A stretch of 64,000 nt of DNA from Magnetococcales bacterium. GTDB lineage: Bacteria > Pseudomonadota > Magnetococcia > Magnetococcales > Magnetaquicoccaceae. Where the stretch lies: NCBI GenBank assembly GCA_015231755.1, contig JADGAZ010000021.1:1-64000 (forward strand), given 5' to 3'. Made by a program: the position numbers and the translations under genes. This document shows, piece after piece, positions 1,773-56,337 of this stretch; the stretch's first letter is position 1, and every line of letters begins with the position of its first letter. The notes under the pieces were generated by a model. It saw nothing but the letters and a program-made list of their open reading frames with translations, made no database searches and was not told where the DNA came from.

Positions 1773-1788
1773 ACAAGGAGAGTAATCA

Positions 1789-2157: not shown

Positions 2158-2184
2158 AACACCTTGGAGAGGCGCTTTACATTC

Positions 2185-30189: not shown

Positions 30190-30370
30190 CAGGACTCCTC
30201 AATTCAGGATCAGGATTCAAATCCCACATTAATGGCATGACCTTCTCTCAGTCAAAAGAAAAAAACGTGCTCCCGCCATTGAATAGGTGACGCGCCCGAC
30301 ACGATCCGCTAAGATTTTGATGGCAAACCCTGGTGACCAGCCACACATCTTAGTTGAGGAGGGACAACCG

Positions 30371-31246: not shown

Positions 31247-31257
31247 GGGGAAATTTC

Positions 31258-34443: not shown

Positions 34444-34747
34444 GAAAGATCAGGCTTGAAAAGTCAACGCGCAGGCCCGAAGCCACCAAACGACCGACCG
34501 GAATGCCCCCGACACGCCATGACTTAAGAATCTTGCGACAACCGGCCATCGCAGCAGGTCCGGATTGCCGCCCCGGCAGGGGCGTAAGTCAGGATCTTAT
34601 TGATTTTACTGCCTACTTTTACCCTTGACATTTTAATCAAAGCGTATCATTTTCTTGATAAATCTCTTCATTCAAGGATCTTCTAAGGGTTTTCTGTCCG
34701 TCGGATCCTGTCATGGATGGCGATGGAGCGAAACAGGAGCTTCATCC
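34444..34747. promoter_or_regulatory. Divergent intergenic region, AT-rich promoter stretch
   Basis: About 300 bases between the glycosyltransferase and the acyltransferase, which are divergent. The part 34597-34680 is strikingly AT-rich for this genome. A TTGACA occurs at 34625-34630 with TATCAT at 34645-34650, but the 14-base spacing is too short for a standard promoter. Promoter activity toward the plus strand is likely; the exact elements are not. Confidence 0.35.
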
Positions 34748-35392
34748 ATGGATCACCACTCTCCAGGCCACTTTATTCATCCAACCGCCATTGTCGACGA
34801 CCCCATAGAAATTGGCAACGGGAGTCATGTCTGGCATTTCAGTCACCTGATGAGCCACTGCGTCATCGGAGAAGCCTGCAACATCGGCCAGAATGTGGTG
34901 ATCGAAAAAAAGGTCCGCATCGGCAATCGCTGTCGCATCATGAACAACGTCACCGTCCACGAACAAGTCACCCTGGAAGACGATGTCTTTTGTGGTCCCG
35001 GCGCTGTTTTTACCAATGTGATCAATCCCCGGGCCCATATTCCACGCAAACATGAGTTCAAACCGACCCTGGTGCGTCAAGGATGCACCATCGGCGCCAA
35101 CGCCACCATCGTGTGTGGCGTGGTGTTGGGCCGTTTCAAGACCCATACCATTCCGGTTCCGACTCCGGAGTGGGCATCCTCCTGTTTTGACAAAACAATC
35201 AACCACGACGAAATGAAACAAAAAGGGGTGATCGATGCCGGCACCTGGAGTCACCGCATTCTGACCGACGCGTGGCTCGACACCATCGTTCAGCAAGGCA
35301 AGGGAGAGGTGATCTTTCAATCCCCCGCCGGTCGTACCCTGTTGCTGTATGGACGCACGCCCAAAGAAAGAGCGCAAGCCGTCCGACCATGA
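34748..35392 (+). CDS. Left-handed beta-helix acyltransferase with unusual C-terminus
   Basis: A 214-residue protein whose first about 125 residues are hexapeptide repeats ([28 protein letters not shown]) and the block [19 protein letters not shown], as in WbpD/FdtC-type N-acetyltransferases for amino sugars. After VVLGR the family normally continues with further coils and a VxGxPAR ending; here about 85 unrelated residues follow. No frameshift restores the family end. It could N-acylate the amino sugar made by the neighbouring aminotransferase. AGGAG lies nine bases before the ATG. Confidence 0.8.
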
Positions 35393-37644
35393 CCCATCAT
35401 CCCGACCATGAAGCTCCCCTCCAGACCCGTTCCTTGTTGAAGAGGTTGATTCCGTCCCGCATCGGCTCAAGCTCCGGTTCATCCTGGAGTGAAATCCTGC
35501 TGGCTTTGCTGCTGATCGGGCTGGCGCAATGGACCATCACCACGCATATCATCGGATTGGGGTTCGGGGGCCATTTCGGGGATCTGCTGCGCTGGGCTTG
35601 GTGGATTCCGCCGGGAATGGTCGTGCTGTTCCGACTGATTCAGGGACAAAAACAATCTTCCATCCTTTCACCCCCGTCCGCCCCCTCGTGCGCAGATCAA
35701 ACTGTCCCATCCCCGATCACGCCCCATCCCCTGATCACGGCAGTGGCCCTGGTGGCCCTGTTTGAAAGCGCGGCGGTCTATTTTCCCTCCAGCCGTTTTC
35801 ATCTGTTCTGGATCGGCGCCATGCTGTTTCTCGGCCATGGCTGGCTGAACACGGTGAAACAGGAAGGTATCACTCCGGCAACCCGGCATGATACCAGCCG
35901 CGGCGACACGCTGATCCATGGTCTATTGATCCTCGGAGCGGTGCTGATCACCCTGACCGCCCATCGGCCCGATCCGGACGATCAGTATTATTCCAATCTG
36001 GCGGTCATGACCCTGGAACACCCGGAACGCCCCCTGCTCTCCTGGAACGGCATGATCTGGGCGGAAAACGTTCCGACCTGGCTTCCCGTGGACCGGTTGC
36101 CCTCCATCGAATTGCTGGTGGCCATGGTCGCCCATCTGCTGGATGTGGAACCCATTGCTGTCTCCCATCTGGGCATGGCGCCGCTGTTTGCCGCCTTCAC
36201 CGTTCTGGCCCATGGAGCGCTGCTGAGGCTTCTGGTGCCGACCTTCTGGCTGCCGGCGTTGATTGTGGAGATGTTTTTGTTGTTGGCGTTGGGGGGGGAG
36301 GTCCGGGCAAGTTTCGGGGTGTTTGCGTTTGTCCAGCTTCATTTTGGCAAAAGTCTGCTCTTTTCCACCCTGGCCCCGCTGGTACTGCTCTTTGCCTTGC
36401 GCTACATGCGCACCGGCTCCCGAAGGGATTGGCTGTTGCTGTTCGTCGGACAAATCGCCGCCCTGGGCTGCTCCTCCTCCGCCTTGTTCCTGGCCCCGGC
36501 CACCGCAGGAGTGGGACTGGCCGCCCTGTGGCGACCCGACCGGCTCTCCACAGGACGACTCCTGACAGGTCTGATCACCACGGTCTATCCCCTGGGAATC
36601 GGCCTCCTGCTTTTGGCCTCCATGTCCCACGCCATGGAGGCCATGACCTGGACCCCCTTGAGCATCGAACAAAACCTTGCCAGAGTTCTGGGGAGCGGTC
36701 CCCATCTATGGTTTTACCTGCTGACCCTGATCGGCGCCTGGACCACCACCCCGGACCCCCGCACCCGTCGCACCCTGCTGGGACTCTCCTGGGTTTTCAT
36801 GGGGATTTTTCTCAATCCTTTTTTTTATCCCCTGCTTGCCCAACACCTCACCGGTCCGTTGACCACCTGGAGGCTGCTGTTTGCCCTGCCCCTGCCCGCC
36901 ATGGGCGCCATCCTGCTGCTTTCCCTGGCCACATCGACACGGAATGATCTGCCCTTGCCAGCCAGACCCGTACTGTTGGCAGTCACTCTGGGGGTATTGC
37001 TGCTCTCCTTTTATGCCCCGTGGCGGGGATTCTGGAGTCAACCGTTCGCCTTGACGAGCGCCATTCTGGCCCTGCTCTTTTTCGCCGGGTTTACCTCCCG
37101 GTGGCGCTCCCTGCTCTCCGGGTTGATTCTGATGGGGATGCTGGTCTCCCTGATCCATCTGGCCCCTCCCAACCGGCGCACCCCCCTGGCCCCGCCCCGC
37201 ACCCTGATTCACGCGCCGACGATCAAGGCGCCACCGCAACTCTTCGCGCTGGCCGAAAAAATCGTCTCCCTGGCGCCAAAGGGCCGCTCTGCCCTGCTCC
37301 CGGAAGAGGTCGGCGTCTGGGTGACCACCCTGCGTCATCATCCGCCTCTGGTCGCCCTGTCCAAAAGCTACCTGGAGCAGTCCGCTCCCCAACTGGAACC
37401 CGACGCCCTGACCATACGGGGGGCCCTGCTGGATCACGTCTCGGGGAAAACCCGACTGCCCGACGCATCACGACAGCTTCACGAGGCGGTGCGTGCCTAT
37501 CGCATCGGCCTGGTGGCCGTCAAACAGGATCACCCGTGGCTGGAAGAGATGACGGCCACGATGATTGGATTGAATTTCCAAACCATCCAGCACGATGGCT
37601 ATCGGATCTGGATCCCGGCTTCCCGATCTTCCGCCTCCAAGTGA
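35389..37644 (+). CDS. Large polytopic membrane protein, possible GT-C transferase
   Basis: A 751-residue integral membrane protein with about 13-15 helices and a soluble C-terminal part of about 170 residues. I do not recognise the family with certainty. An acidic loop with [10 protein letters not shown] after the first helices recalls the metal/substrate loop of GT-C glycosyltransferases that use polyprenyl-phosphate sugars. The ATG overlaps the acyltransferase stop by four bases, and a FemAB-like gene follows 2 bp later, so the three genes form one unit. Function is inferred from context only. Confidence 0.72.
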
Positions 37645-37646
37645 CC

Positions 37647-38759
37647 ATGCCCATGTCCATTCCTGTCACCCCGATCACCCAGACCGATGCCGAAGAGCCG
37701 GAATACGGACTCGTTCCGGCAGAAGGTGACCTGATCCACGCCTCGGCGCCAATGGTGCAACTGTTGCGTCACATGATGCCCAAGGCGCAGGTGATTCGGC
37801 TGGAGGCCCGCGACGATCACAACCACCGACTCAGAGGTCTGCTGCACTGTTTCATTCAGGATGGCCCGTGGGGACCGATTGCCAACTCCCTGCCTTTTTT
37901 CGGCACCCATGGCGGTCCGGTGGTGCCGGATCAGGATCCCGCGGTCAGAGCCGCGCTGGTGGAGGCGTTTCGTCAACTGGTACGGGAAAAAGGCTGCGTC
38001 GCCTCCACCCTTATCACCTCTCCCATGGATCCGGACCCGCAACAGATCCGCGCCATCCTGTCGCCGGATTATGTGGATTCCCGCATCGGACTGATCACGC
38101 CCCTGCCTGCCCAAACCGGAGTGGACGGAAACAACCTGATGGCGTTGTTTCACTCCAAATCCCGCAACATGGTGCGCAAGGCGTTACAGGGCGGATTCCG
38201 ACTGGATAAAACGGAAAGCCCCGAGCACTGGACCTTTCTGGAAAACACCCACGGACAAAACATGGCGCGGCTGAACGCGGCGACCCATCCCGAGGCGTTT
38301 TTTCGTTATGTGATCCATCCGGCTGCCCCGTCCCTCGAAAAACATTTGTATACGGCGTTTCTCGGGGATGAGCCTGTGGCCGGACTGTTGCTGCTTTCCC
38401 ATCACAAAAGCATGGAATACACGGTTCCCGTGATTCGGGAGGAGTACCGGGCATCCCAACCCCTCAGCTTCCTGATCTGGCATGCCATGATGGAAGCGGT
38501 GGAGTCGGGATGCCGCTGGTGGAACTGGGGAGGAACCTGGTTGAGCCAGGAGAGTCTGTACCGATTCAAAAAACGCCTCGGCGGGGTGGATCATCCCTAT
38601 TACTATTATGTCAACGTTGACGATCCGATCCTGTTGAAGGTCGAACGTCACGCCTTGATGCGGGAATACCCCTTTTTTTACGCCTATCCCTTTGGACAGG
38701 TGGAAAACCAATCTCTACCGGATCATCCGATGCGTCCGTTGAGTCTTTCCATCACCTGA
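37647..38759 (+). CDS. FemAB-like GNAT acyltransferase
   Basis: A 370-residue protein of the FemAB/GNAT superfamily (double N-acyltransferase fold). Typical parts are SKSRNMVRKALQGGF, then LENTHGQNMARLNA and a C-terminal half with YTAFLGDEPVAGLLLL and WWNWGGTWLSQESLYRFKKRLGG. In surface-polysaccharide clusters such proteins attach amino acids or acyl groups to amino sugars or peptides. No signal or membrane helix is seen. Its 3' end overlaps the convergent cysC gene by 37 bases. Confidence 0.78.
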   Translation: MPMSIPVTPITQTDAEEPEYGLVPAEGDLIHASAPMVQLLRHMMPKAQVIRLEARDDHNHRLRGLLHCFIQDGPWGPIANSLPFFGTHGGPVVPDQDPAVRAALVEAFRQLVREKGCVASTLITSPMDPDPQQIRAILSPDYVDSRIGLITPLPAQTGVDGNNLMALFHSKSRNMVRKALQGGFRLDKTESPEHWTFLENTHGQNMARLNAATHPEAFFRYVIHPAAPSLEKHLYTAFLGDEPVAGLLLLSHHKSMEYTVPVIREEYRASQPLSFLIWHAMMEAVESGCRWWNWGGTWLSQESLYRFKKRLGGVDHPYYYYVNVDDPILLKVERHALMREYPFFYAYPFGQVENQSLPDHPMRPLSLSIT

Positions 38760-39328
38760 TCCACACAGGCTTCGATGGAGGCGCCTCCGGTATCGAGGGT
38801 CAATTCGGGATATTCCGGGGGTTCGTAGGGAGAGGAGATGCCGGTGAACTCCGGAATCAATCCGGCCCGGGCCTTGCGATAAAGACCTTTCACATCCCGT
38901 TGTTCACAGATTTCCAGGGAGCAGTGACAATAGATCTCCATGAAATCCTCCGGGGCCACCAGTCCCCGCACCCGCAGCCGGTCGGCGCGAAACGGCGAGA
39001 TGAAACCACACAGCACGATCAAACCGGCGTCGAGCATCAATTTGGCCACTTCACCGATGCGGCGGATGTTTTCCACCCGATCCTGGTTGGTAAAGCCCAA
39101 ATCCCCGCACAGTCCGTGACGCACATTGTCCCCATCCAGGGCATAGGTGCGACGCCCGGCGTCATGGAGACGTTTTTCCACCCCATGGATCATGGTGGAC
39201 TTGCCGGATCCCGACAGCCCGGTAAACCAAAGAATGTTGCCACGATGACCATTCATCTGTTCCCGTTCGGCGCGGGAGACCTGCACCGCCTGCCAAACGG
39301 CATTGGGGCTTGTTGCCTGTTGTGCCAT
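38723..39328 (-). CDS. cysC: Adenylylsulfate kinase
   Basis: Phosphorylates APS to PAPS, the donor for sulfotransferases; 201 residues. P-loop GLSGSGKSTM, DGDNVRHGL, and the lid region KGLYRKARAGLIPEFTGI are intact. A stand-alone CysC beside surface-glycan genes and within 9 kb of a sulfotransferase suggests PAPS for sulfation rather than for sulfate assimilation. No cysD or cysN is present nearby. The ATG at 39328 is the only good start. Confidence 0.95.
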   Translation of the reverse strand: MAQQATSPNAVWQAVQVSRAEREQMNGHRGNILWFTGLSGSGKSTMIHGVEKRLHDAGRRTYALDGDNVRHGLCGDLGFTNQDRVENIRRIGEVAKLMLDAGLIVLCGFISPFRADRLRVRGLVAPEDFMEIYCHCSLEICEQRDVKGLYRKARAGLIPEFTGISSPYEPPEYPELTLDTGGASIEACVDQVMERLNGRIG

Positions 39329-43766: not shown

Positions 43767-44777
43767 TTGGGAGCCATGGAATTGACCGATGATGCGCGAC
43801 GCCAGATCGAAGAGATTCTGCGTCATGCCGAGCGCCTTCTCGATGCCTCCTCGAACAGCACGCTGCGCCTGCGCCTGCAAACCATCCGTCAGGCCACCGA
43901 CAGCCTGTTGTCCCAGTTGGACACCACCGAGTCGAGCGCAACGGCCCCGACGGGACTGCCCGAAACCCCATGCATTCCACCCGCGATCATTCAGGGCAAT
44001 CCTCACATTCTGCTGGTCGAGGACAATCCCTTCACCCAGAAACTCATGACCCGTCTGCTGACCCAGCAGGGATACCGGGTTACCCTGGCCCAGAACGGTC
44101 ACGAAGCCCTGGAAGAAATAAGCCGTACCCCCATGGATCTGGTGCTCATGGATTTGCGCATGCCGGTGATGGACGGATTCCAGGCCACCGCGGAAATTCG
44201 CCAACGGGAAAACCGTGGCACCGGTCGTCGTGTTCCCATCATCGCGGTGACCGCCCTGGTGGCCGAGGAGGAACAGCAACGCGCCATCGACGTGGGAGTG
44301 GACGGATACCATCCCAAACCGGTCCGGGCGGCGATCCTGTTCGCCGAAATGGAACGACTGTTGAACATCCAATCCGCCACCTCGCATTCAGCCGCCGCAA
44401 CGGAGGATGACGAGGATGTGGAGATGATCGTGGACATGGACCGGTTGCTCAAAACCGTGGACGGGGACATGGAGTTGCTCAAGGAGATCACGGATCTGTA
44501 TTTCACCGACGCTCCCCGCCAGATGGCCCGCATCGAAAGCGCCCTGACCATCGGCAATGCCAACGAAGTGCGGGAGGCTGCCCACAGCTTGAAAGGGGCC
44601 ACGGGGGCTTTTGGTCGGGTTCGGGTTTACGATCTGGCCCTGGCCCTGGAACAGGCCGGAAAAAAAGGCGAACTGCGACACGCCGCGGAACTGTGGCACC
44701 AGTTGATCATCGCCTTGCGTACCATGGAAGAGACCATCCAAAAAGAGATCGTTTATTTGTCCGGAGAATCATCGTGA
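43767..44777 (+). CDS. Receiver-Hpt phosphorelay protein
   Basis: About 336 residues: an N-terminal helical stretch (1-70), a receiver (about 78-205; acceptor Asp in LVLMDLRMPVMDG, Lys in YHPKPV), a short linker, and an Hpt domain (about 225-330) with an intact His in REAAHSLKGATGAFG. It can take phosphate from the hybrid kinase encoded 23 bp upstream and pass it on. The TTG at 43767 is well spaced from AAGGA; an ATG at 43776 is also possible. The following gene overlaps the stop by four bases. Confidence 0.9.
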   Translation: MGAMELTDDARRQIEEILRHAERLLDASSNSTLRLRLQTIRQATDSLLSQLDTTESSATAPTGLPETPCIPPAIIQGNPHILLVEDNPFTQKLMTRLLTQQGYRVTLAQNGHEALEEISRTPMDLVLMDLRMPVMDGFQATAEIRQRENRGTGRRVPIIAVTALVAEEEQQRAIDVGVDGYHPKPVRAAILFAEMERLLNIQSATSHSAAATEDDEDVEMIVDMDRLLKTVDGDMELLKEITDLYFTDAPRQMARIESALTIGNANEVREAAHSLKGATGAFGRVRVYDLALALEQAGKKGELRHAAELWHQLIIALRTMEETIQKEIVYLSGESS

Positions 44778-46015
44778 CTCTGTTGCACCCTTTTTGCGCG
44801 TGGCGTCCCCGTTGTGGTCTGGAACAACGGGTGGCCGCTCCCCCCTACGATGTCCTCAACAGCGCCGAGGCCCGACGGATGGCCGACGGCGTACCCGAAT
44901 CCTTTCTGCGGGTCTCCAAGGCGGAGATCGATCTGGATCCCGCCATTCCCACCCACGATCCACGGGTCTACGCCATGGCCAGGGAACGCTTTCAGGCGTT
45001 GCGCGCCGAAGGTATTCTGGTGCAGGATCCGGCGCCCTGGTATTACATCTACCGTCTGGTGATGAATGGTCGGGAACAGACCGGCGTGGCCGGAGTCGCC
45101 TCCGTGGCCGCCTACCTGGACGAGCGCATCAAAAAACACGAATTCACCCGACCGGACAAGGAAAACGATCGCACCCGTCTCTCCGACACCCTGGACGCCC
45201 ACTCTGGACCAGTCTTTCTGACCCACCGCCACGATCCGACCATCAAACGGCTCACCGAATCCTGGATGGCCGACCATCGGCCCGTATACGACTTCGTGGC
45301 CAACGATCAGGTGCGGCACTCGGTGTGGACCGTGGATGATCCGGTGGTGATCGATGGCTTGCGTACCGCCTTCGACCGGTTGCCCGCCTTGTACATCGCC
45401 GATGGTCATCATCGGGCGGCGGCGGCTTCCCGGGTCCATCTGGCGCGCCGCAAGAGCGATCCGAATCCCGAGGCGCTGCATGGCTATTTTCTGGCGGTGA
45501 CCTTTCCGGATACCCAGGTGCGCATCCTCGACTACAACCGGGTGGTCCGGGATCTCAATGGGCTGGACGAAACCCAACTGCTCGCCCGCATCGCCACGAT
45601 CCCCCGGCTGACCTTGCTGCCTTCGGCTCAACCGGTACGCCCCTCCAGCCGTCACGAATTCGGCATGTACCTGAAGAATCAATGGTTCCGCCTCAAGATC
45701 GCCCTGGAGCCAGACCGGGAACACGATCCGGTGCAACGGCTGGATGTGACCATCCTGCAAGATCGTCTGCTCCATCCGATTTTAGGAATCGCCGATCCCC
45801 GTCAGGATCACCGCATCGATTTCGTCGGCGGCATTCGGGGTCTGGAAGCCTTGACGCAACGGGTGGACTCCGGCGAAATGGCGGTGGCCTTTTCCCTGTA
45901 TCCCACGGCGTTGGACGAACTGATGGCCGTGGCCGATGCCGGCGAAGTCATGCCGCCCAAATCCACCTGGTTTGAACCCAAACTGCGGGACGGGCTGCTC
46001 GTTCAGACCTTCTGA
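44774..46015 (+). CDS. DUF1015 family protein
   Basis: A 413-residue protein of the uncharacterised DUF1015 family. Diagnostic parts are VAAPPYDVLN near the start, KHEFTRPDKENDRTRL, PVFLTHRHD, LYIADGHHRAAAA and the ending MPPKSTWFEPKLRDGLLV. No function is established; the HH/DGHHR cluster suggests a catalytic or metal site. The GTG at 44774 (GGAG eight bases upstream) overlaps the stop of the Hpt gene, so the two are coupled, although a signalling link is unproven. Confidence 0.88.
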   Translation: MTLLHPFCAWRPRCGLEQRVAAPPYDVLNSAEARRMADGVPESFLRVSKAEIDLDPAIPTHDPRVYAMARERFQALRAEGILVQDPAPWYYIYRLVMNGREQTGVAGVASVAAYLDERIKKHEFTRPDKENDRTRLSDTLDAHSGPVFLTHRHDPTIKRLTESWMADHRPVYDFVANDQVRHSVWTVDDPVVIDGLRTAFDRLPALYIADGHHRAAAASRVHLARRKSDPNPEALHGYFLAVTFPDTQVRILDYNRVVRDLNGLDETQLLARIATIPRLTLLPSAQPVRPSSRHEFGMYLKNQWFRLKIALEPDREHDPVQRLDVTILQDRLLHPILGIADPRQDHRIDFVGGIRGLEALTQRVDSGEMAVAFSLYPTALDELMAVADAGEVMPPKSTWFEPKLRDGLLVQTF

Positions 46016-46244: not shown

Positions 46245-47747
46245 ATGACGCCTGTTCCAACCCCATTGGCCCCGCCATCTCCCCCGCCTGAGAACTGGGC
46301 CGTCGACAGCTTTTATTTCCTGCCCGAACTGGCCCATGCTGCCGCCCGGCAAAATCGTCCGGTCAAATTGGCCCATCCCACCATCATCGGACAACAAGTC
46401 TGTTATTATCCCGGTCCCCCGGTGCCCTATGCCACCCCCAACATGGTGGCGGTCCCCATGGAGGACGCGGTCGACTTTTTCGCCTTCACCCGCTACCGCC
46501 GGCCCTCCAAACTGGTACTGCCCGTCGAATGGCCCGAAGAAAAACAACCCGTCGCCCTGGCATGGTTGAGCAAGACCCTTTCAGCCGCCCTGTCGCTCCG
46601 CAACACCGTGCAAGAGCGGTTGACCCAGACCATTCGACGCTCCACCGTGACGTTTTCAGCCAGACAACCCCTGCGGATCTATCTGGGCAGCAGCCGCTTG
46701 ACGACGGTGATGCAATACACCTCCAAAGGCATTGCCAAGGCCCTGGAGGAGCTGGGTCATGAAGTGACGCTGGATCTGGAACAAAACGGCCTGGAACAGT
46801 TGCATTTCTTTCATCATATCGACAAGATCGCCACCATCAATCCCCATTTGACCATTTGGGTGAACCACCTCAACAACTACATGCTCAGTCCGGAAGTGGT
46901 CAATTGCGCCTGGTTCCAGGATCCCATGTCCCAGATCGTCTCCGGTCAACCCCTGCCGTTGCGCAGCCGGGACGTGATCTTCTCCTTAAGCCCGGAAATC
47001 GACCATTATCTGCGCGGCTGCGGCGTCGAACACATCCAACGCCAATTCATGTGCGTGGATCATACCCTGTTCCGCGTCATGCCCGAGGTGCGTCGGGAAC
47101 CCAAAGTGGTGTTTGTGGGCAGTTCCTACCGGCCCCACCTGTCGAGCCTGCAAAACCAGCCCGGTTTTGAGGCCTTCATCGGCGCGTTGCAAGAGGCCTT
47201 CGCGCAGGGCCACCCGTTTCATCAAGGTTTTGTGCTGGAGACCGGACGACGCCATGGCATACTCCTGAACGACAGCTACTGGTCCTATGTGGCCAATTAC
47301 ATCGTGCGGGATACCACGGTGCGTTGGTTGTGCGCCAACCCCACCACCAAAGTGGAGATTTATGGTCGATACTGGGATCAGGATCCGCTGGTGGCCCCCC
47401 ATTACAAAGGGGAACTCCCCCATGGCCCGGCCCTGGCCGAAGTGTACAACTCGGCCTCCATGGCCTTGTGCGTCATCGTCAAGGAGCTCAACTCCCAGCG
47501 ACTGGCGGAAATCGCCGCCTGCGGCGCGGTACCGCTGATCTATGACACCCGGGATCTGGCGGAACCTCCCCACTGGGATGAGGACGCCCTGTTTTTCCGC
47601 ACCCAGGAGCAGTTGAACGCCTGCCTGCGACAACAACGACCCATGGGCAATCCGGAACGCATTGCCCTCCCTTTTCACTATACCACGTTGGCCCGCACCT
47701 TCCTGCGGGAGGTGGAACGGCTGACCGGAGTTGAAACCCTGCAATGA
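46245..47747 (+). CDS. CgeB-like family 1 glycosyltransferase
   Basis: A 500-residue protein whose C-terminal half resembles the CgeB/YkvP spore-protein type of glycosyltransferase: VFVGSSYRPHLSSL, a conserved KVEIYGRYWD, HGPALAEVYNSASMALCV and the acceptor end motif RLAEIAACGAVPLIYDT. The N-terminal about 130 residues (proline-rich, then PVPYATPNMVAVPMEDAVDF) are not recognised. No membrane helix is seen. It is the first gene of a compact operon; its stop overlaps the next ATG. Sugar and acceptor are unknown. Confidence 0.75.
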   Translation: MTPVPTPLAPPSPPPENWAVDSFYFLPELAHAAARQNRPVKLAHPTIIGQQVCYYPGPPVPYATPNMVAVPMEDAVDFFAFTRYRRPSKLVLPVEWPEEKQPVALAWLSKTLSAALSLRNTVQERLTQTIRRSTVTFSARQPLRIYLGSSRLTTVMQYTSKGIAKALEELGHEVTLDLEQNGLEQLHFFHHIDKIATINPHLTIWVNHLNNYMLSPEVVNCAWFQDPMSQIVSGQPLPLRSRDVIFSLSPEIDHYLRGCGVEHIQRQFMCVDHTLFRVMPEVRREPKVVFVGSSYRPHLSSLQNQPGFEAFIGALQEAFAQGHPFHQGFVLETGRRHGILLNDSYWSYVANYIVRDTTVRWLCANPTTKVEIYGRYWDQDPLVAPHYKGELPHGPALAEVYNSASMALCVIVKELNSQRLAEIAACGAVPLIYDTRDLAEPPHWDEDALFFRTQEQLNACLRQQRPMGNPERIALPFHYTTLARTFLREVERLTGVETLQ

Positions 47748-48853
47748 TGACACATCCCTGTGGCCAATTGAGTCCCAGAGGGGTTCTGGATATGGGCAGA
47801 CGCTGCCCTCACTCCTGCACCTTCTGTTTCTACAGTTTCTACGACAACTCCGACGACCAGTTTCATTATCTGCGTCGCGCCCCCTGGGTTTCCGGGGAGG
47901 CGTTGCGCCGGGTGCTGGACAGTTTCGTCTCCTGGGGGCTGACCCATTTCGACTATACCGGCGGGGAACCCTCCCTCCACCCGGAGTGCGTCGAAATCAC
48001 CCGCTACGCCCATCGGGAACTGGGGCTGAAAGGCCGGATGATCTCTTTGGGCATGTTTCTGCTGGCACCCCGCCCGCGGGGTGGCGTGCTGCTGGATGAC
48101 CTGCTGGATGCGGGACTGGATGATTTTCTTTTCTCGTTCCACACTGCGGATCCTGCTCTTTTCAAGCAGCTGACCGGGGCGGAACTGGACAAGCTGCACC
48201 GGGTGATGGATAACCTGGACGATCGGGGCTTTTCTTATTGCATCAACATCGTGGTGTCGTCGCTCAACGAGCAGACCCTGGCCGAGACCGTCGCGGCCCT
48301 GGGGGGACGGCGGGTGCGAATGGTCAATTTCATCATGATGCGCATGGACTGGGGCTTGCGCAACCGCCCCAACATCGCCATCGCCAAAAAGGGACGTCTG
48401 ACCCACACCATCCGCCATCTGACCGCCGCCGTGGACCTGTTGAACCAGGCCGGAATCGCGGTCAACATTCGCTACGCCCCCTATTGTCTGCTCAAGGGTT
48501 ACGAACGCCACATCGTCGGCTACAAGGGATTGCAACTCGACCCCTACGAGTGGCGCAACGGCACCCTGGCCGCCAGCGAGGGGGTTCCCTATCTGAAATG
48601 CCACACCCTCAATGAACACCGTCATGAGGTGGTTCCCCGGTTTGAAAACGATCCGGTCTACAAACTGGTGTTCGGTCCCCAATGCGCCGGGTGCGGCCTG
48701 CGTCCGATCTGCGACGGCGCAGACGCCTTCTACATCGAAGAGTTCGGCTGGGAGGAGTTCGTCCCCTACGCGCCACCGGTCATCCACGATTATGTCCATT
48801 TCCGCCACGATTATCCGGGTGTGTTTCTCCTGAAAGAGCAGCCGCATGAATAA
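47744..48853 (+). CDS. Radical SAM protein with SPASM-like cysteine tail
   Basis: A 369-residue radical SAM enzyme. The cluster-binding motif CPHSCTFC (CX3CX2C) is at residues 21-28, with the following GGE motif in DYTGGEPSLHPE. C-terminal cysteines (LKCHTLN, CAGCGLRPICDG) look like an auxiliary Fe-S cluster of the SPASM/twitch type. Substrate unknown; many such proteins modify peptides or sugars. Its start overlaps the previous stop and its stop overlaps the next start, so it is made in step with both glycosyltransferases. Confidence 0.87.
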   Translation: MMTHPCGQLSPRGVLDMGRRCPHSCTFCFYSFYDNSDDQFHYLRRAPWVSGEALRRVLDSFVSWGLTHFDYTGGEPSLHPECVEITRYAHRELGLKGRMISLGMFLLAPRPRGGVLLDDLLDAGLDDFLFSFHTADPALFKQLTGAELDKLHRVMDNLDDRGFSYCINIVVSSLNEQTLAETVAALGGRRVRMVNFIMMRMDWGLRNRPNIAIAKKGRLTHTIRHLTAAVDLLNQAGIAVNIRYAPYCLLKGYERHIVGYKGLQLDPYEWRNGTLAASEGVPYLKCHTLNEHRHEVVPRFENDPVYKLVFGPQCAGCGLRPICDGADAFYIEEFGWEEFVPYAPPVIHDYVHFRHDYPGVFLLKEQPHE

Positions 48854-49886
48854 ACTCACCATCCTCCTCACCACCCAAAACCGGCGGGCCACGCTGCAAC
48901 GCGCCCTGGAGGCGATTTTCGCCACCGTGGATCCGGCCATCCCCTTCGAGGTGCTGGTGGCGGACGATGGTTCCACGGACGACACCCCGGCCTTTCTGAA
49001 CGCCCTGGCCGGGTCGAACCCCTCCGTCTCGACGCTGCGCAATCCCACCGCCCGCGGACCCGCCGCCGCCCGCAACCGGGGCATCCGACAGGCCAGCGGG
49101 GATTTTGTGCTGATCGCCGGGGATGACGTGATCTTTCAGGCCGGGGCCATCGGGCTTTTATACCACCACGCCCTCACCCATGACATGAGCCGCGCCTCGG
49201 TGATCGGCAACATCGGCCCCTGTCCGGAAGGAATCACCCCCTTCGAGCACTGGTGCAGCCACGGGGGTTCCCAGTTCACCCACTACCGGATCCAGGAGTC
49301 CGAACGCCTGGATTGCGGCGAGGCCTATTTCTACACCAGCAACATTCTCACCCCCCGGACCCTGCTCCTGGAATACCCCTTCGACGAAAGTTTTCCTTAT
49401 CCCCGTTACGAAGACCGAGAACTGGGCTACCGGTTGCGTCGGGCCATCGGGCATGTGATCCACTATGAAAAAAACGCCCTGAGTACCCATCGCCATCCCC
49501 TGCGGTTTGCCAATTGGCTGACGGGTTTCAAGACCTTCGTCTGGTCCGCGCTCCACTTCGCCAATCTTTACCCCCACGACGCGACCTTGGCCAGACAGTT
49601 GGGACTGGAGCGGGCACGAAACGAAACCCGCTTCGATTTCAGCGCGTTGACCGTGGCCGCGGAAACTCTGAACGCCAAACATCCGCTTTATTTTTCGGAG
49701 GATCCGACCATCAGCGGCCCGGCCCGGCAGGAACTCGGTCAAGGATTCCGGCTGATTCAGGAGTTCTTCCGGATGATGTATTTCCGGGAGTGGCTCACCC
49801 TGCCACCCCAGTACGATGCCCGTCACGATCTCCACGCCAACCAGGCGGCCACGCGGCTGCTGGCGCAACTTTCCGGAGCGTTGTAA
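48846..49886 (+). CDS. Family 2 glycosyltransferase
   Basis: A 346-residue soluble GT-A enzyme: TILLTTQNRRATLQRALEA, the nucleotide-sugar motif ADDGSTDDTPAF, GPAAARNRGIRQASGDF, the metal-binding region IAGDDVIFQ and a late YEDRELGYRLRR matching the ED acidic motif. The C-terminal third is specific to this protein. It overlaps the radical SAM gene by eight bases and is followed by a B12-type radical SAM gene 5 bp later. Confidence 0.88.
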   Translation: MNKLTILLTTQNRRATLQRALEAIFATVDPAIPFEVLVADDGSTDDTPAFLNALAGSNPSVSTLRNPTARGPAAARNRGIRQASGDFVLIAGDDVIFQAGAIGLLYHHALTHDMSRASVIGNIGPCPEGITPFEHWCSHGGSQFTHYRIQESERLDCGEAYFYTSNILTPRTLLLEYPFDESFPYPRYEDRELGYRLRRAIGHVIHYEKNALSTHRHPLRFANWLTGFKTFVWSALHFANLYPHDATLARQLGLERARNETRFDFSALTVAAETLNAKHPLYFSEDPTISGPARQELGQGFRLIQEFFRMMYFREWLTLPPQYDARHDLHANQAATRLLAQLSGAL

Positions 49887-49891
49887 CCCCC

Positions 49892-51676
49892 ATGCCTCCC
49901 GATCCGACCGACTTTCTCACCCCCCTGACCGCCCTGCTGGGGCAAAAGCCTTTGGGCAACCGGGAAATTTGTCTGATCGTGCCGCCGTTTCACGACGCGG
50001 AGACGATCCAACCCGCCATTGCCAAGGCGCGCCGGTACATGACCCACATTCCCTATGGTCTGCTCTGTCTGGCGGCGGCGGTCCACCAGCATCTCAGCGG
50101 CTGGCGGGTGCGCATCGTGGATTTGAACACCGAAAACCTCTTGCAGGCGGTGTTGGAACAACCCCACGGTTATGACCACCTGATGGAGACCATTCCCACC
50201 GGTTGCGCCCTGTACGGGGTCTCGTGGATGTTCGTCTCCGCCGAACAACCGGCCCTGGAAATCATGAAACGGCTCAAGGCCCGAGGGGTGTTTCTGGTGG
50301 CCGGCGGGGTGCAGGCCTCCTTCGACGCCGAGTCGCTGGTGGAGGGATGGGTGGATCTGGTGGTCAAACGGGAGGCGGAATTCACCCTGGTGCGGCTGCT
50401 GGCGTTGTGGGAGTCGGTGCAGACCGGACAACCCTGGGTTCCCCCCACAGGCCCGGACGAGTGGGTCAATCTGGTGTTTCGCCACGAGGGGATCACCCAT
50501 CGGCTGCCGGAACGGTTTCAGCAACCCCCCACATTGGACATCCGGGAAGAGTATCGCAAGGTGAACCTGCCCGACTATTCCCGGGCCGGAGCGCCGAGTG
50601 TCTGGGTGCGGCTGCTGGCGGGAGAAGAGAAACTCTTTGCCAATGTCTTGAATGTGCGGGGATGTCGGGCGCGTTGCACCTTTTGTCAGGTGGCGGAATA
50701 CAATGGTCGCGGGGTGCGTCCCAGAGGCTTCGAGGATGTGGCGGCGGAAATCGCCTTTTTGTACCACGAGAAGCAGGTGCGGCACATCGAATGGGTGGAT
50801 GACGACTTTCTCGCCCATCCCGATCAGGCGCTGGCCCTGCTCCAGGCCATCGCCGCCATGGGCCTGCCGGATCTGACCTTTTCGTGCATCAACGCTTTGA
50901 TGGCCAGCTCCATCGACGCCACCATCGCCCAGGCCCTGGACGACGCCGGATTCCGGCATGTGGGCTTCGGGGTGGAGTCCGGCAGCGTGGCCCGGCTCAA
51001 GCAGTTGCGCAAGCCGGTCTCGTTGAGCAAGGTCAAACAGGTGTGCGAACTGCTGAAAACCCGACATCCCCGCATCTGGATCCATGCCAATTTCATGCTG
51101 GGCTACCCGGACGAGACCATCGGCGAACTGCTGAACACCTTCGAGTACGCCCGTGGGTTGCAAATCGACTGGTGCGCCTGCACGGTGTTGATTCCGCTGC
51201 AAAACACCCCGATTCACAAGGAGCTGTCCGAACGGCAGGATGATCACGCCACCCGACGCCTGGGACAGCGCAACGCCACCTTGGCCAGTCCGGGACGGGA
51301 TCTGGCCTATCAGAAAAAAAGCTATGACGACAAGTTCGCCAAGGTGATCGATTTTCGCGCCCTGGATCCAACCAGACCGGCCACGCGGGAGGAGATCCAG
51401 CAGTTTCACGTCTTTTTCACCGTGTTCGTCAACCTGCTGAACAATGTCAATCTGGGACCGACCGGGCAGCCGGAACGGATGTTGCGCATGACCGAAGACA
51501 CCCTGCGGGCCTATCCCATGGATCCGGTCTCCTGGATGATTCACGCCGAATGCGCCAAACGGTCCCACGACTGGCCCCGGCATGAGTGGGCCATGGGCAG
51601 ACACCGTCAGGCTTTGGCCGATTCCCGGTTCTGGCAGGAATTCTTTGAACTTTATGGAGTGGTGCCCTGGTCATGA
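49892..51676 (+). CDS. B12-binding-type radical SAM protein (first of two)
   Basis: A 594-residue class B radical SAM protein. The N-terminal about 180 residues have the alternating strand-helix pattern of a cobalamin-binding fold (IPYGLLCLAAAVHQHL, FLVAGGVQASFD) but no DXHXXG signature. The Fe-S motif is CRARCTFC at about residues 260-267, followed by WVDDDFLAHPDQ and FGVESGSVARLKQLRK. The C-terminal extension (about 460-594) is not recognised. Members of this group methylate or rearrange unactivated carbons; the substrate is unknown. The stop overlaps the next ATG. Confidence 0.85.
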   Translation: MPPDPTDFLTPLTALLGQKPLGNREICLIVPPFHDAETIQPAIAKARRYMTHIPYGLLCLAAAVHQHLSGWRVRIVDLNTENLLQAVLEQPHGYDHLMETIPTGCALYGVSWMFVSAEQPALEIMKRLKARGVFLVAGGVQASFDAESLVEGWVDLVVKREAEFTLVRLLALWESVQTGQPWVPPTGPDEWVNLVFRHEGITHRLPERFQQPPTLDIREEYRKVNLPDYSRAGAPSVWVRLLAGEEKLFANVLNVRGCRARCTFCQVAEYNGRGVRPRGFEDVAAEIAFLYHEKQVRHIEWVDDDFLAHPDQALALLQAIAAMGLPDLTFSCINALMASSIDATIAQALDDAGFRHVGFGVESGSVARLKQLRKPVSLSKVKQVCELLKTRHPRIWIHANFMLGYPDETIGELLNTFEYARGLQIDWCACTVLIPLQNTPIHKELSERQDDHATRRLGQRNATLASPGRDLAYQKKSYDDKFAKVIDFRALDPTRPATREEIQQFHVFFTVFVNLLNNVNLGPTGQPERMLRMTEDTLRAYPMDPVSWMIHAECAKRSHDWPRHEWAMGRHRQALADSRFWQEFFELYGVVPWS

Positions 51677-53724
51677 ACGATACGACATCCCCGTTGATCC
51701 CGGTCTGGATGGGAGATTTCAGCCATCACAGCAACACCTTCCGCACCTTTCCCCTGGGTGTGGGCACGGTGGCGGCCTATGCCCACCGGGCGTTCAAGAC
51801 GAGTCACACGTTTCACATTTTCAAGTCCGCCGAGACTTTTTTCCAAACCAGTCTGGAGGCGGCCCCGACCATCGTCGCCATCTCCAGTTATGTCTGGAAC
51901 GCCAAACTGACCGAAGCCCTGCTGGTGCGTCTGAAACAACGCCATCCCCGAACTGTCGTCATTCTGGGTGGACCCAACTATCCTCTGGAACCGAACAAAC
52001 AACGGGAATTCTTCCAGACCCGGCCCTGGCTGGATTTTTTTGTGGTGGGAGAAGGAGAAGTCCCCTTCGCCGCGTTGCTGGGACAGTTGATGGCGGCAGA
52101 CAACGACCCGGAGCGGCTGAAGGCCTCCGGTCAGACGTTGCCGGGATGCCATTATCTGTATCAAGGCCAACTGGTCACCCATCCCACCCCCAAACGGCTG
52201 ACGGATCTGAACCAGATTCCCTCCCCCTACCTGGACGGCTTGCTGGACCACTTCTTTCCGCAACACTTGAGTCCGTTGCTGCAACTGGCCCGGGGATGTC
52301 CCTTCGCCTGCACCTATTGCAGCGAAGGGGATGACTATTACAACAAGATCCGCCACTACGACACCGCCCGCTTTGAAGCCGAATTGCGCTACATCGCGGC
52401 ACGGATTCCCGACAAGGAGATCACGCTGCATCTGGCGGATTCCAATTTCGGCATGTTTTCCCAGGACGTGGAAGCCTGCGCGGCGATTCGTCGGGTGCAA
52501 GACGAGTTCGGCTGGCCGATCCGCATCGACACCTCCCTGGGCAAAAACCGGGTGGAAACCATCTTGAACGCGGTCAAGCAACTCAAATACGGCACGGTCT
52601 GGTACAGCGCCGCGTTGCAAAGCACCTCCGAGAACGTGTTGCGCAACATCAAACGGCGCAACATCTCCACCGGACAACTGTTCGCCACCGCCCGGGCCAC
52701 CAGCGCGTACAACAAAGGCACCAACTCCGAAATCATTCTCAATCTGCCGGGAGACAGTCGCGCCGATCACCTGCATACCGTGCGCGAAATCATCGAAGGG
52801 GGCATCTCCCGGATTCGGATGTACACCCTGCTGTTGCTCACCGGCACCGAGATCGAAACCGCAGCCCATCGGCAGCAGTTCGGCTTGAAGACCCGCTTCC
52901 GGGTGCTGCCCCGCAACTTCGGTCATTACCAACTGGACGGCGAGCGGGTGCCGATTGCCGAAATCGGCGAAATCATCGTGGAAAGCGACAGCATGGATTA
53001 CGAGGCTTATCTGTATTGCCGTCTGTTCGATCTATCGGTGGAGGTCTTTTACAACGATCACTATTTCCTGGAAGTGGAAGGACTGCTGGAGCATCTGGGT
53101 CTGTCGATGTTCGATTTCGTCCTGGCCTGTCACGATCTGCTGGAGGCGTATCCCCGGGAGTTGCGGGCCATCTACCAGGGATTGCAGGCGTCGATCGAAA
53201 AAGAGTTGTGGGAGTCCCAGGAGAAGCTGGAAGCCTTCATCCAGATCCCCGGCAATCTGGAACAGTATGCCGAGGTGGAGCACGAAAACAGTCTGGCCAC
53301 CAACCGTGCCCTGGCGGTATTCACCTGCGGGGATCAGTTGCACGACATCGCCCGGCGGGGTCTGTTGGCCCTGTTGGAACGGGCCGGACGGCTGGACGAG
53401 TCCATGACCCGCTATGTGGAAGAGATGATCCGCTTCAGTTGGCAACGCAAACGGGGCCTGCTGGAGCCGCATCATGTCTATCAAGACGCCTTCGCGTTCG
53501 ATTTCCAGGCATTGGCCAAGAACGGATTCCACGGCGACCCCCTGGCCTCCCAACGTCCCCAGGAGCGCCGTTACTCCTTCTGGCATGAGCCAGAAGTGGC
53601 CTCAGACATCACCCGACTGTATCGACAAGGCCAAACCCCGGTGGCCGGGATTCGCAATATTCTGTTCTACTCCATCGCGGCCAACCCGGCGGATCACTAT
53701 TATCGCTCTTTCGCCGCCGCCTGA
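51673..53724 (+). CDS. B12-binding-type radical SAM protein (second of two)
   Basis: A 683-residue protein, last gene of the operon. The N-terminal domain (FPLGVGTVAAYAHRAF, VVILGGPNYPLE, FFVVGEGEVPFAALL) matches the B12-binding fold, the radical SAM motif is CPFACTYC at about 216-223, and an unusually long C-terminal region (about 450-683) is helical and unrecognised. It is only distantly similar to the preceding protein, so the pair probably catalyses different steps. Its last codons lie inside a direct repeat and overlap, antisense, the remnant of a lectin gene. Confidence 0.85.
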   Translation: MNDTTSPLIPVWMGDFSHHSNTFRTFPLGVGTVAAYAHRAFKTSHTFHIFKSAETFFQTSLEAAPTIVAISSYVWNAKLTEALLVRLKQRHPRTVVILGGPNYPLEPNKQREFFQTRPWLDFFVVGEGEVPFAALLGQLMAADNDPERLKASGQTLPGCHYLYQGQLVTHPTPKRLTDLNQIPSPYLDGLLDHFFPQHLSPLLQLARGCPFACTYCSEGDDYYNKIRHYDTARFEAELRYIAARIPDKEITLHLADSNFGMFSQDVEACAAIRRVQDEFGWPIRIDTSLGKNRVETILNAVKQLKYGTVWYSAALQSTSENVLRNIKRRNISTGQLFATARATSAYNKGTNSEIILNLPGDSRADHLHTVREIIEGGISRIRMYTLLLLTGTEIETAAHRQQFGLKTRFRVLPRNFGHYQLDGERVPIAEIGEIIVESDSMDYEAYLYCRLFDLSVEVFYNDHYFLEVEGLLEHLGLSMFDFVLACHDLLEAYPRELRAIYQGLQASIEKELWESQEKLEAFIQIPGNLEQYAEVEHENSLATNRALAVFTCGDQLHDIARRGLLALLERAGRLDESMTRYVEEMIRFSWQRKRGLLEPHHVYQDAFAFDFQALAKNGFHGDPLASQRPQERRYSFWHEPEVASDITRLYRQGQTPVAGIRNILFYSIAANPADHYYRSFAAA

Positions 53725-53803
53725 CCGCCATCCGCTCCAGAGAGGTTCACGGGTGGGCCGAAGGCCAACCAGCTCACCCGGACCTCTCGGGGTCGCTCCT
53801 CGA
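53677..53803 (+). repeat. Direct repeat, left copy, flanking the nuclease module
   Basis: This 127-base segment matches 55640-55766 without gaps at a constant offset of 1963 bases. Positions 53717-53803 differ at only 3 of 87 bases; 53677-53716 is more diverged. It holds the end of the second B12 radical SAM gene and, antisense, the end of an H-type lectin gene. Confidence 0.88.
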
Positions 53804-53815: not shown

Positions 53816-54625
53816 TTACAATTCAAGACGTTTGATGGAAAACGTATCTGCAACAGCTTTGGCATGTTGTTGCAAAGGCTCTGTTTGAGATTGTTTCCAA
53901 CCTTCCAGCACTTCCCGATAGCTGCATGCCACAAAGACCACTTCGTCATTGCGTACCGCCTGCGAGAACAAGGCCACTTCCTGGCGATGTTCCTCCACCA
54001 TTCTGACATCTATCGGTCGTTGATCTGGCCACATCATTGGTTCGGCGTACAGATAATAAAGAACTGGACATTTCCCATGATTGCGTCTGCCAGGTTGGAC
54101 CTCGGTGCGAAGAGCGAAAGCATGTTTGATGAGTTGGGCCGCATCCAAATGTTGGAAGGTCATTGACTGGTTGTTTAAAGAGTCGCGCATGTTTTCGTAA
54201 CCGGTCATCCGATCCCCCCAAACCAAACGCCAGTAGGCTTCGGCGAAGTGGACGGCAGGATGTGCGCGAAAAGGTTCGTAGCGCTTCGATTCTACGCCGA
54301 TCAATGCCGAATGGGTGGTGATCAACACATCCAGGCAGGGATGACGTCCACCACTCCAAGGAAACTTCACGATCTGTTCGAGCGCCAGGGTCTGTACGGG
54401 CCATCCGCACTCCTGGCAACCCGGCAAGACAGGAAGAAGGTCAGGCTGTTGGAGAAAATAACCGAATGCATTCGCCACCAATGCCGCCGAAGATTCTGGA
54501 TTCGCGAATTTTCCACTTTGGATTTCGCTGCCTGGTGCCGCATCGTAACAGGCGCGAATCTTCTCTTCGGACACTCCGGGCAACACAATGATGCTGGGTT
54601 TTAATCCTTCTGGCTGCGTTTGCAT
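53816..54625 (-). CDS. PD-(D/E)XK nuclease-like protein
   Basis: A 269-residue protein with a likely PD-(D/E)XK core: LDVLITTHSALIGVESKRYEPF (shown shortened: Asp in CLDVLI, then ESK in GVESKRYE). It lacks membrane helices and a recognisable DNA-binding domain. Two CXXC-like pairs are not obvious beyond CQECG. It follows the other nuclease-like gene with 2 bp between them, so the two act together. The base composition is more AT-rich than the flanks. A restriction or defence role is possible; the family is not certain. Confidence 0.65.
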   Translation of the reverse strand: MQTQPEGLKPSIIVLPGVSEEKIRACYDAAPGSEIQSGKFANPESSAALVANAFGYFLQQPDLLPVLPGCQECGWPVQTLALEQIVKFPWSGGRHPCLDVLITTHSALIGVESKRYEPFRAHPAVHFAEAYWRLVWGDRMTGYENMRDSLNNQSMTFQHLDAAQLIKHAFALRTEVQPGRRNHGKCPVLYYLYAEPMMWPDQRPIDVRMVEEHRQEVALFSQAVRNDEVVFVACSYREVLEGWKQSQTEPLQQHAKAVADTFSIKRLEL

Positions 54626-54627
54626 GG

Positions 54628-55611
54628 CTACACCGATTTGATCCGACCTGTGGACGGATCCCAGGTCGCAAGACGCATGGCTACTCCTCCCGTCCAGTCA
54701 TGGAACTGACGAATCAGATGTTCCGCAAAGGGTTTGGCTTTTCTTTTGCGACCGGCATGGTGATAAAAATCGTCAGGAGCGATGATACACCCCATGACAG
54801 GCAGTTCTGACGGCAAGTGAAGATCAGGATTGCGGAGATGAAACAAAATCTTTGCCGCATCGCTGAGTTGCAGCAATTTAAGTTGCCGCATGTTCTCTAC
54901 AACGGCATACCATACATGATTCGCCTCGGACTTGACTTCACAGATTGCCAATAGATACTCCGCATCCTTGCGCAGAAGCAAAAAAAGATCGGCTTCCACA
55001 TTCCCGCGTCGTCCTCCGCCAGGATCCGTGGTTAAAGGCATGGCGTTGATGCCATCAATCACCTGATATCCCAGAAAATTCAGTCTATGGAACTGATCGA
55101 TCAGGATTTCATGTTCCATTTGATGTTCACCGGGATTCGGTCTGCCGCGATCCCCCCGGCGATATCGATCATCGTCCCGCAGTTGCGGATCGACGCCCCG
55201 CTTCCACCCCCCCGGGACAGGTTGATTCCAAAGTTGTCGCAAACTTTCGATACGTTGTTGAGGTTCAGGCAGATCCGATCCAGTATAACTCATCAGATCG
55301 TCCCAACGTTGGCGCCACGCCTGAAAAGAATCTGTTGCCTGGACACTATGCGAAGGACTATCCGCAGCCATGGAGCGTTTCACAGGTTCGATTATTCCTT
55401 GATAGGTCTCGGCGACATGATGGACAAATTCGTCAAGAGAATGAAAGTTTATTGCTCTTGCTGTCAACTCTCTTTCCAAATTTTCACAGGGTGGCTTCAT
55501 TCGGATAGTGTAACTGTATTGGCCCAATTGATTCTTCTCAGTACAGACATTGACCGTTTGTGATTTGGCTCCGGTGGCAACTTTTACCTTACGACCACAG
55601 ATTGTCAACAT
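54628..55611 (-). CDS. Second PD-(D/E)XK nuclease-like protein
   Basis: A 327-residue protein. The C-terminal half carries NVEADLFLLL followed by LLAICEVKSEAN, matching the D...EXK signature of PD-(D/E)XK nucleases. The N-terminal 150 residues are helical and unrecognised. The ATG at 55611 has GGAG five bases upstream. It is the first gene of a two-gene unit of lower GC than the surroundings, bounded by the direct repeats, which suggests acquisition by transfer. Substrate and partners are unknown. Confidence 0.65.
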   Translation of the reverse strand: MLTICGRKVKVATGAKSQTVNVCTEKNQLGQYSYTIRMKPPCENLERELTARAINFHSLDEFVHHVAETYQGIIEPVKRSMAADSPSHSVQATDSFQAWRQRWDDLMSYTGSDLPEPQQRIESLRQLWNQPVPGGWKRGVDPQLRDDDRYRRGDRGRPNPGEHQMEHEILIDQFHRLNFLGYQVIDGINAMPLTTDPGGGRRGNVEADLFLLLRKDAEYLLAICEVKSEANHVWYAVVENMRQLKLLQLSDAAKILFHLRNPDLHLPSELPVMGCIIAPDDFYHHAGRKRKAKPFAEHLIRQFHDWTGGVAMRLATWDPSTGRIKSV

Positions 55612-55639: not shown

Positions 55640-55687
55640 ACGACCCATCCGGCGAATCACGATTATCGTTCCTTTTCCTCCGCCTGA
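55640..55687 (+). pseudogene. Remnant: 3' end of a radical SAM gene
   Basis: Reading forward, THPANHDYRSFSSA and TGA match the end of the upstream radical SAM protein (ANPADHYYRSFAAA, stop). The similarity stops where the AT-rich nuclease module begins. It shows that the right repeat copy once followed a complete radical SAM gene. Confidence 0.65.
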
Positions 55688-55766
55688 CCGCCATCCGCTC
55701 CAGAGAGGTTCACGGGTGGACCGAAGGCCAGCCAGCTCACCCGGACCTCTCGGGGTCGATCCTCGA
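55640..55766 (+). repeat. Direct repeat, right copy, flanking the nuclease module
   Basis: Right-hand partner of 53677-53803. Here the sequence is the functional 3' end of the intact lectin gene (minus strand) plus the radical SAM remnant. Confidence 0.88.
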
Positions 55767-56319
55767 CGCGGGTGACCAGCAACACGGTGAACCCACCGGC
55801 ATCCACCTCTTCGGCGCTCACCAGAAACTGGATCTTCTCCTGATTGAAATCAATGCCCACCAGACCCATCATCACCCGGGGAGGCTGAGCAAAGGGTTTG
55901 GAAAACGCCACCCGCTGCCGAAACTCCCGGGCGCGGGTGAACAGACTGGCCAGACGCCACTCCTTGTCCTCCTGACGGGCCAAGACACTCCCGCTCTCCA
56001 ACCGCTCACCGGGAGTCGGCATCAGGGCTTGCAACGCGGTCAAACGGCTCTGTTGTTCCCGCAAGCCGGTTTCCAAAGCCACGACCCGCTCAGCCATCCT
56101 CGTCACCTGGGACCGTTCGGCCTCCAGGGTGGCCACGGCGCTCCGCAACCGGTTCCACTCCCCGCCCAGCAGCCAGTCTTGCCAGTTGTTGCGGATGGAC
56201 TGCCCATCACGCTCCCCGGCACCACTCCCGGCGCCGCCCACAGGCAACCCGCCCCTGAAAACCAGCACCCCGACCAGAATCACTACCAGGGTCAACGACA
56301 TCCAGAACCAGCGTGCCAT
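55663..56319 (-). CDS. Membrane-anchored H-type lectin domain protein
   Basis: A 218-residue protein with one N-terminal membrane helix (FWMSLTLVVILVGVLVF), a coiled-coil stalk (about 60-115, LEAERSQVTRMAERVVALE) and a C-terminal H-type lectin domain (about 140-205). The lectin part shows VAFSKPFAQPPRVMMGL, then VDAGGFTVLLVTR and VRVSWLAFG, matching the fold first described in snail agglutinin, which binds N-acetylgalactosamine-like sugars. It would display a trimeric sugar-binding head outside the inner membrane. ATG at 56319 with AAGGAG just upstream. It follows the speE-like gene by 18 bp. Confidence 0.82.
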   Translation of the reverse strand: MARWFWMSLTLVVILVGVLVFRGGLPVGGAGSGAGERDGQSIRNNWQDWLLGGEWNRLRSAVATLEAERSQVTRMAERVVALETGLREQQSRLTALQALMPTPGERLESGSVLARQEDKEWRLASLFTRAREFRQRVAFSKPFAQPPRVMMGLVGIDFNQEKIQFLVSAEEVDAGGFTVLLVTRVEDRPREVRVSWLAFGPPVNLSGADGGQAEEKER

Positions 56320-56337
56320 GCCCACTCCTTTTTTCCA

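Follow-up and report, generated by a model that had tools for sequence, protein, structure and literature searches.

A radical SAM and glycosyltransferase operon in a Magnetococcales genome: a probable exchangeable cassette for a surface glycan

The window analyzed here, a stretch of 64,000 nucleotides, is part of contig C21 in a 3.84-Mb draft genome of a Magnetococcales group, to which the MAG nW5bin3 (Magnetococcales) is the closest relative with a name. Five open reading frames (g1 to g5), all on the forward strand, occupy positions 46245–53724 with successive junctions of −4, −8, +5, and −4 bp; the g1/g2 and g4/g5 junctions are ATGA overlaps, g2 and g3 overlap by 8 bp, and a gap of 5 bp separates g3 from g4. 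Judged by Pfam gathering cutoffs, g1 (46245–47747, 500 aa) is a CgeB-like GT-B glycosyltransferase (Glyco_trans_1_2, PF13524, 44.3 bits against a cutoff of 25), g2 (47744–48853, 369 aa), the core of the module, is a radical SAM enzyme (Radical_SAM, PF04055, 67 bits), and g3 (48846–49886, 346 aa), the constant partner of g2, is a family 2 glycosyltransferase (Glycos_transf_2, PF00535, 80.7 versus 23.3 bits). The two remaining genes encode B12-binding radical SAM proteins: g4 (49892–51676, 594 aa; PF04055 and PF02310 above their cutoffs) and g5 (51673–53724, 683 aa; PF02310 at 42.6 and PF04055 at 46.5 bits, both above cutoff), a predicted C-methyltransferase of the TokK/CysS/KedN5 type. A first-pass annotation of this DNA had described five tightly packed genes with these domain identities and the CX3CX2C motifs CPHSCTFC, CRARCTFC, and CPFACTYC, all of which are borne out. 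None of the five proteins reaches a curated NCBIfam cutoff and therefore no known pathway is matched; a description of the five-gene set was not found in the open-access literature.

By Pfam, g1–g5 include no gene for a flippase, a polymerase, a ligase, or sugar-nucleotide synthesis, which counts against a role in making a surface glycan; the combination of a flippase or transporter with a polymerase in one cluster, which marks a complete O-antigen or capsule locus of the Wzx/Wzy or ABC type, is likewise missing from the five genes. The closest glycan genes of the window (RmlA, RmlB, and an aminotransferase, at 29–38 kb) lie several kb off with unrelated genes intervening, which weighs in the same direction. 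A second glycan-type region of the window, 29095–39286, is located upstream of the operon and comprises genes for a sulfotransferase, RmlA-like and RmlB-like proteins, an aminotransferase, a family 2 glycosyltransferase, an acyltransferase, a DUF6077 protein, a FemAB-type GNAT protein, and an APS-kinase-like protein.

To the left of the operon, a backbone gene encoding a DUF1015 protein (44693–46015, forward strand, PF06245) marks the edge of an exchange site: it holds this position in 9 of 11 genomes of the genus, and the genes downstream of it differ. In genome G030, which is closely related, a DUF1015 gene 96% identical to that of the window is followed by a different operon (locus L084, 4240–11495) encoding a Methyltransf_14 C-methyltransferase, an unknown protein, a radical SAM/SPASM protein, a B12-radical SAM protein (29% identical to g4), and a methyltransferase. 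The left edge of this operon retains 35 bp of g1 at 91% identity, and its right edge retains 83 bp spanning the g5 stop codon at 88%. The cassette is exchanged, because another operon occupies the same site in G030 between relics of g1 and g5. The simplest reading of these sequences is that G030 once carried an operon of the window type, which would have been replaced by another radical-enzyme glycan operon; such relic-flanked replacement is what one would expect if surface glycans vary. Pairs of radical SAM and B12-radical SAM genes resembling those of G030 occur at another site in G032 and G027.

To the right of the operon, a restriction-endonuclease-type gene (REase-ARP, PF22558, 39.1 bits) and a partner without a Pfam match occupy 53816–55611 on the reverse strand, in a low-GC stretch. 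On either side of the pair stands a 126-bp direct repeat of the g5/lectin junction, the first (53678–53803) consisting of the end of g5 and a copy of the lectin 3′ end, the second (55641–55766, 90% identical) lying at the 3′ end of the lectin gene itself; this arrangement suggests that the restriction-type pair was inserted later between operon and lectin. The H-type lectin gene (55663–56325, reverse strand, PF09458, 51.2 bits) had been described as converging on the operon and as possibly binding its product. Its convergent orientation stands, with the restriction-type pair separating the two. A functional link finds no support, since the lectin, a backbone gene, also occurs in the genus members G031 and G035 at loci where the operon is absent (L093, L096); it is therefore rejected as a partner.

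Homologues of all five genes were sought across genomes, and the full set proved to be confined to this Magnetococcales group. Among 48 genomes of the class, g2 and g3 are found only in the window genome and in G029, where all five genes are present but split over two contigs. The two copies of the operon (G000 and G029) are 92–98% identical in nucleotide sequence, and neighboring genes are 72–85% identical. However, the G029 operon contig may be misbinned, and a recent transfer is therefore not claimed: the DUF1015 end that opens this contig shares 96% identity with that of the window, unlike the other DUF1015 contig of the bin. The two differing DUF1015 3′ ends lie on G029 contigs C22 and C46 (L074, L072), and the operon contig may belong to another strain.

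A single scan of genome contigs yielded seven further g2 loci outside the class, in Planctomycetota, Nitrospirota, Myxococcota, and other phyla. All seven contain a g3 homologue, which adjoins g2 or a g2–g5 pair in six and lies about 6.4 kb from g2 in the Planctomycetota locus L026. A g5 homologue (47% identity) accompanies g2 and g3 in L026 and in the Nitrospirota locus L027; no g5 orthologue was detected in the other five genomes with a g2 locus, nor in a sixth found later. The trees of g2 and g3 agree on their deepest split, which separates a group A (window, L026, and L027) from a group B, with support of 100/100 for this split in g3 and of 97/97 and 100/100 for the two g2 clades. Thus, what is conserved is not the five-gene set but a core of g2 and g3, in some cases joined by g5. 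This coupling is best read as g2 and g3 catalyzing one step after the other. Strong evidence for a glycosyltransferase and a radical enzyme working together comes from a distant Nitrospirota branch, in which a family 2 glycosyltransferase and a g2-type domain (29% identical to g2) reside on one predicted 605-aa protein. The corresponding operon encodes, in order, a GT4 glycosyltransferase, a B12-radical SAM protein, the fusion protein, a second GT4 enzyme, and a polysaccharide flippase-type protein, and its functional set equals that of the window operon. Fusions of about 605 aa are found in Nitrospirota polysaccharide operons at L104 and L105 (L139, L140), and further loci (L106–L114, L116) mostly encode proteins of about 700 aa that carry an unassigned N-terminal region ahead of a radical SAM domain like that of the fusions.

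The radical SAM motif CPHSCTFC of g2 is kept in 11 of 11 aligned relatives. The extra C-terminal cysteines that the first-pass annotation had pointed out are genuine: C248, C314, C317, and C323 (window numbering, converted from the alignment) are invariant in the same eleven proteins, phage and fused forms included, as are R243, Y244, P246, G252, E254, D266, E269, and W270. A second, auxiliary Fe–S cluster in the C-terminal part of g2 is thus probable. In its radical SAM core and its four conserved C-terminal cysteines, g2 resembles SPASM/Twitch proteins, relatives of PqqE and MoaA, and PqqE is its sole sequence match in the PDB. However, g2 does not match the SPASM profile PF13186 at E-values up to 0.1, unlike the radical SAM/SPASM protein encoded in the G030 operon, and is therefore not classed as SPASM. 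In contrast to SPASM/Twitch proteins, it bears an invariant motif of its own, RYxPxC...GxE...DxxEW...CX2CX5C, and is paired with glycosyltransferases rather than with RiPP precursors. No NCBIfam equivalog is reached by g2, the MoaA model scoring 52.9 bits and the viperin model 36.2 bits. AlphaFold models of g2 and g5 (pLDDT 58 and 60) were too weak for a structure search and were left unused. The family is rare, with g2 in 1 of 396 Nitrospirota genomes, 1 of 392 genomes of the Planctomycetota phylum, and 6 of 379 genomes of the phylum holding locus L028; collections of plasmids and annotated phages contained no relatives.

The closest relatives of g5 with solved structures are TokK (7kdx, E 5.2e-42) and CysS (9n1b, E 1.6e-34), class 1 cobalamin-dependent radical SAM C-methyltransferases with which g5 shares the N-terminal B12-binding domain and the CX3CX2C radical SAM core. 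A tryptophan lies under the cobalamin on its lower axial face in these enzymes (Trp76 in TokK, Trp75 in CysS; PMC12846815); W75 of g5 aligns with both residues and is invariant across the three g5 orthologues. Because of this kinship and the conserved lower-axial tryptophan, g5 most likely C-methylates an unactivated carbon, once or repeatedly. The assignment stays conditional, since the relatives OxsB and AlsB perform other chemistry with the same cofactors (PMC13331322). Unlike TokK and CysS, whose substrates are carbapenem or cystobactamid precursors, g5 is accompanied by glycosyltransferases and its orthologues lie in glycan loci; its score against the KedN5 subfamily model NF033712 (164.6 bits) is far below the curated cutoff of 700. 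For g4, by its sequence, any characterized protein is too distant to permit an assignment. Proteins resembling g4 occur in 11 of the 48 class genomes, in other operons; relatives in other Magnetococcia operons, that of G030 included, are distant (27–30%). Glycosyltransferases similar to g1 are common (28 of 48 genomes), and paralogues of 30–41% identity, often within longer TPR-type proteins, are widespread in Magnetococcia. Both g1 and g4 are exchangeable, and each belongs to a broad family with members elsewhere in Magnetococcia.

Several of the distant loci contain glycan genes. In L027, one gene joins NeuB to a radical SAM domain, and others encode the halves of a transketolase, a heptosyltransferase-like protein, a CgeB-like glycosyltransferase, and two further B12-radical SAM proteins, which recur (64% and 53% identical) in L026 beside an RmlD-type reductase. 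L028 combines the end of a NeuB gene with a GH57 gene, a sugar C-methyltransferase gene, and, near the NeuB end and GH57, a gene (1351–3765 of the locus) that joins a cytidylyltransferase to a full TPP enzyme. Loci with NeuB, cytidylyltransferase, or flippase genes are typical of polysaccharide or LPS. A C-methyltransferase-type gene—assigned by Pfam in L028 and by sequence resemblance in L029 and L030—adjoins g2/g3 in these three B-type loci, which lack g5; no such gene stands beside g2/g3 in L031 and L032. Few or no other glycan genes are found near the g2–g3 pair in L029, L031, and L032, which counts against a glycan function.

Viral contigs, searched and described gene by gene, contain g2-family genes in about ten distinct viruses, the first two found being 35–38% identical to g2 of the window. 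In eight phages the gene comes shortly after the one for the major capsid protein, the order being major capsid, a conserved protein of about 160 aa (phrog_5707), radical SAM, and then, where the contig continues, a glycosyltransferase (phrog_14945). Among these eight, an FkbM or other methyltransferase gene sometimes comes directly before or after radical SAM, with head-tail adaptor genes beyond. Of all the viruses, nine have a glycosyltransferase gene nearby. Radical SAM and glycosyltransferase genes of L122 and L151 are less than 6 kb apart and elsewhere than at the capsid position. On the IMG/VR contigs L120, L121, L125, L142, L149, and L150 the module, with a two-domain glycosyltransferase, lies in the stretch that separates the major capsid gene from the head-tail adaptor, at about 5–12 kb in each. 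Near full-length similarity (58 bits) links g2 to phrog_27238, phage radical SAM proteins of unknown function. Members of this type were found with a glycosyltransferase and often a methyltransferase; they form a clade separate from the cellular ones (100/99), and their glycosyltransferase partner differs from g3. The phage modules may serve glycan decoration of the virion, a reading that strengthens the tie of the g2 family to glycosyl transfer.

Taken together, the operon is probably an exchangeable cassette for a lipid- or protein-linked surface glycan. That it produces a glycan with radical-made carbon modifications had been proposed earlier and is the best-supported reading, because homologues of g2, g3, and g5 are found in glycan loci alongside genes for NeuB, a cytidylyltransferase, a sugar C-methyltransferase, transketolase, and a flippase and because g5 resembles TokK and CysS; the accompanying notion of the five genes as a unit does not hold. 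The glycan context is drawn from distant loci whose g2 proteins are only 45–57% identical to that of the window. The sequences establish the gene content, the domain identities, the coupling of g2 with g3, the kinship of g5, and the exchange of the cassette; which substrate is used, what each enzyme does to it, and how the glycan is exported and anchored are what we infer. Sugars would be transferred by g3 and g1. With its CX3CX2C cluster and a second, C-terminal Fe–S cluster, g2 would work on what g3 uses or makes, abstracting hydrogen so that oxidation, epimerization, or dehydration follows. Using methylcobalamin and a 5′-deoxyadenosyl radical, g5 would methylate an unactivated carbon in the manner of TokK and CysS, and g4 would introduce a second cobalamin-dependent change. 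Like exchangeable O-antigen, capsule, or flagellin glycosylation cassettes, the operon carries glycosyltransferases, is rare and patchy, is swapped at a fixed chromosomal site, and has relatives that are accompanied by NeuB, nucleotidyltransferase, and flippase genes. In contrast to these cassettes, three of its five genes encode radical enzymes, flippase and polymerase are lacking, and its replacement is a radical-enzyme operon too.

The glycosyltransferase/g2 pair might instead decorate a surface protein such as flagellin, pilin, or an S-layer protein, and the phage modules likewise virion proteins. The absence of a polymer-export gene from the operon and the capsid-adjacent modules of the eight phages are in keeping with such a target, since building polysaccharide is not normal for phages. 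However, no flagellin or other surface-protein gene is seen near the operon, the cellular relatives lie in loci with NeuB, cytidylyltransferase, or flippase genes, and the phage enzyme is not the same glycosyltransferase as g3, so that a protein target is rather unlikely. Still less likely is that a small glycosylated natural product is made: TokK, CysS, and the KedN5 family do act on antibiotics, but the operon lacks scaffold-building, carrier, transport, and resistance genes, and the distant g2/g3/g5 loci are glycan loci. A role in anti-phage defense or another conflict system could be suspected from PADLOC matches of g5 to the candidate PDC-M51A (76.8 bits) and, weakly, of g2 to pVip (37 bits), and from the adjoining restriction-type pair. 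These matches, however, reflect generic B12/radical-SAM similarities, MoaA outscores viperin for g2, and the restriction pair probably came in separately and later; such a role is very improbable.

A surface-glycan cassette thus remains the preferred interpretation. More tentatively, g2 may found an unnamed radical SAM family that is partnered with glycosyltransferases and modifies a glycan or glycosylated acceptor through radical chemistry, both at cell-surface loci of several phyla and in virion-decorating phages; this family and its glycosyltransferase partnership are what is new here. To our knowledge, few radical SAM enzymes act on surface glycans. The compact g2–g3 unit, a single fused protein in one lineage, and the related radical SAM/glycosyltransferase unit of phages offer a tractable route to radical chemistry on glycans, and they suggest looking in bacterial coats and virions for a sugar of a new type, C-methylated or modified in some other way.
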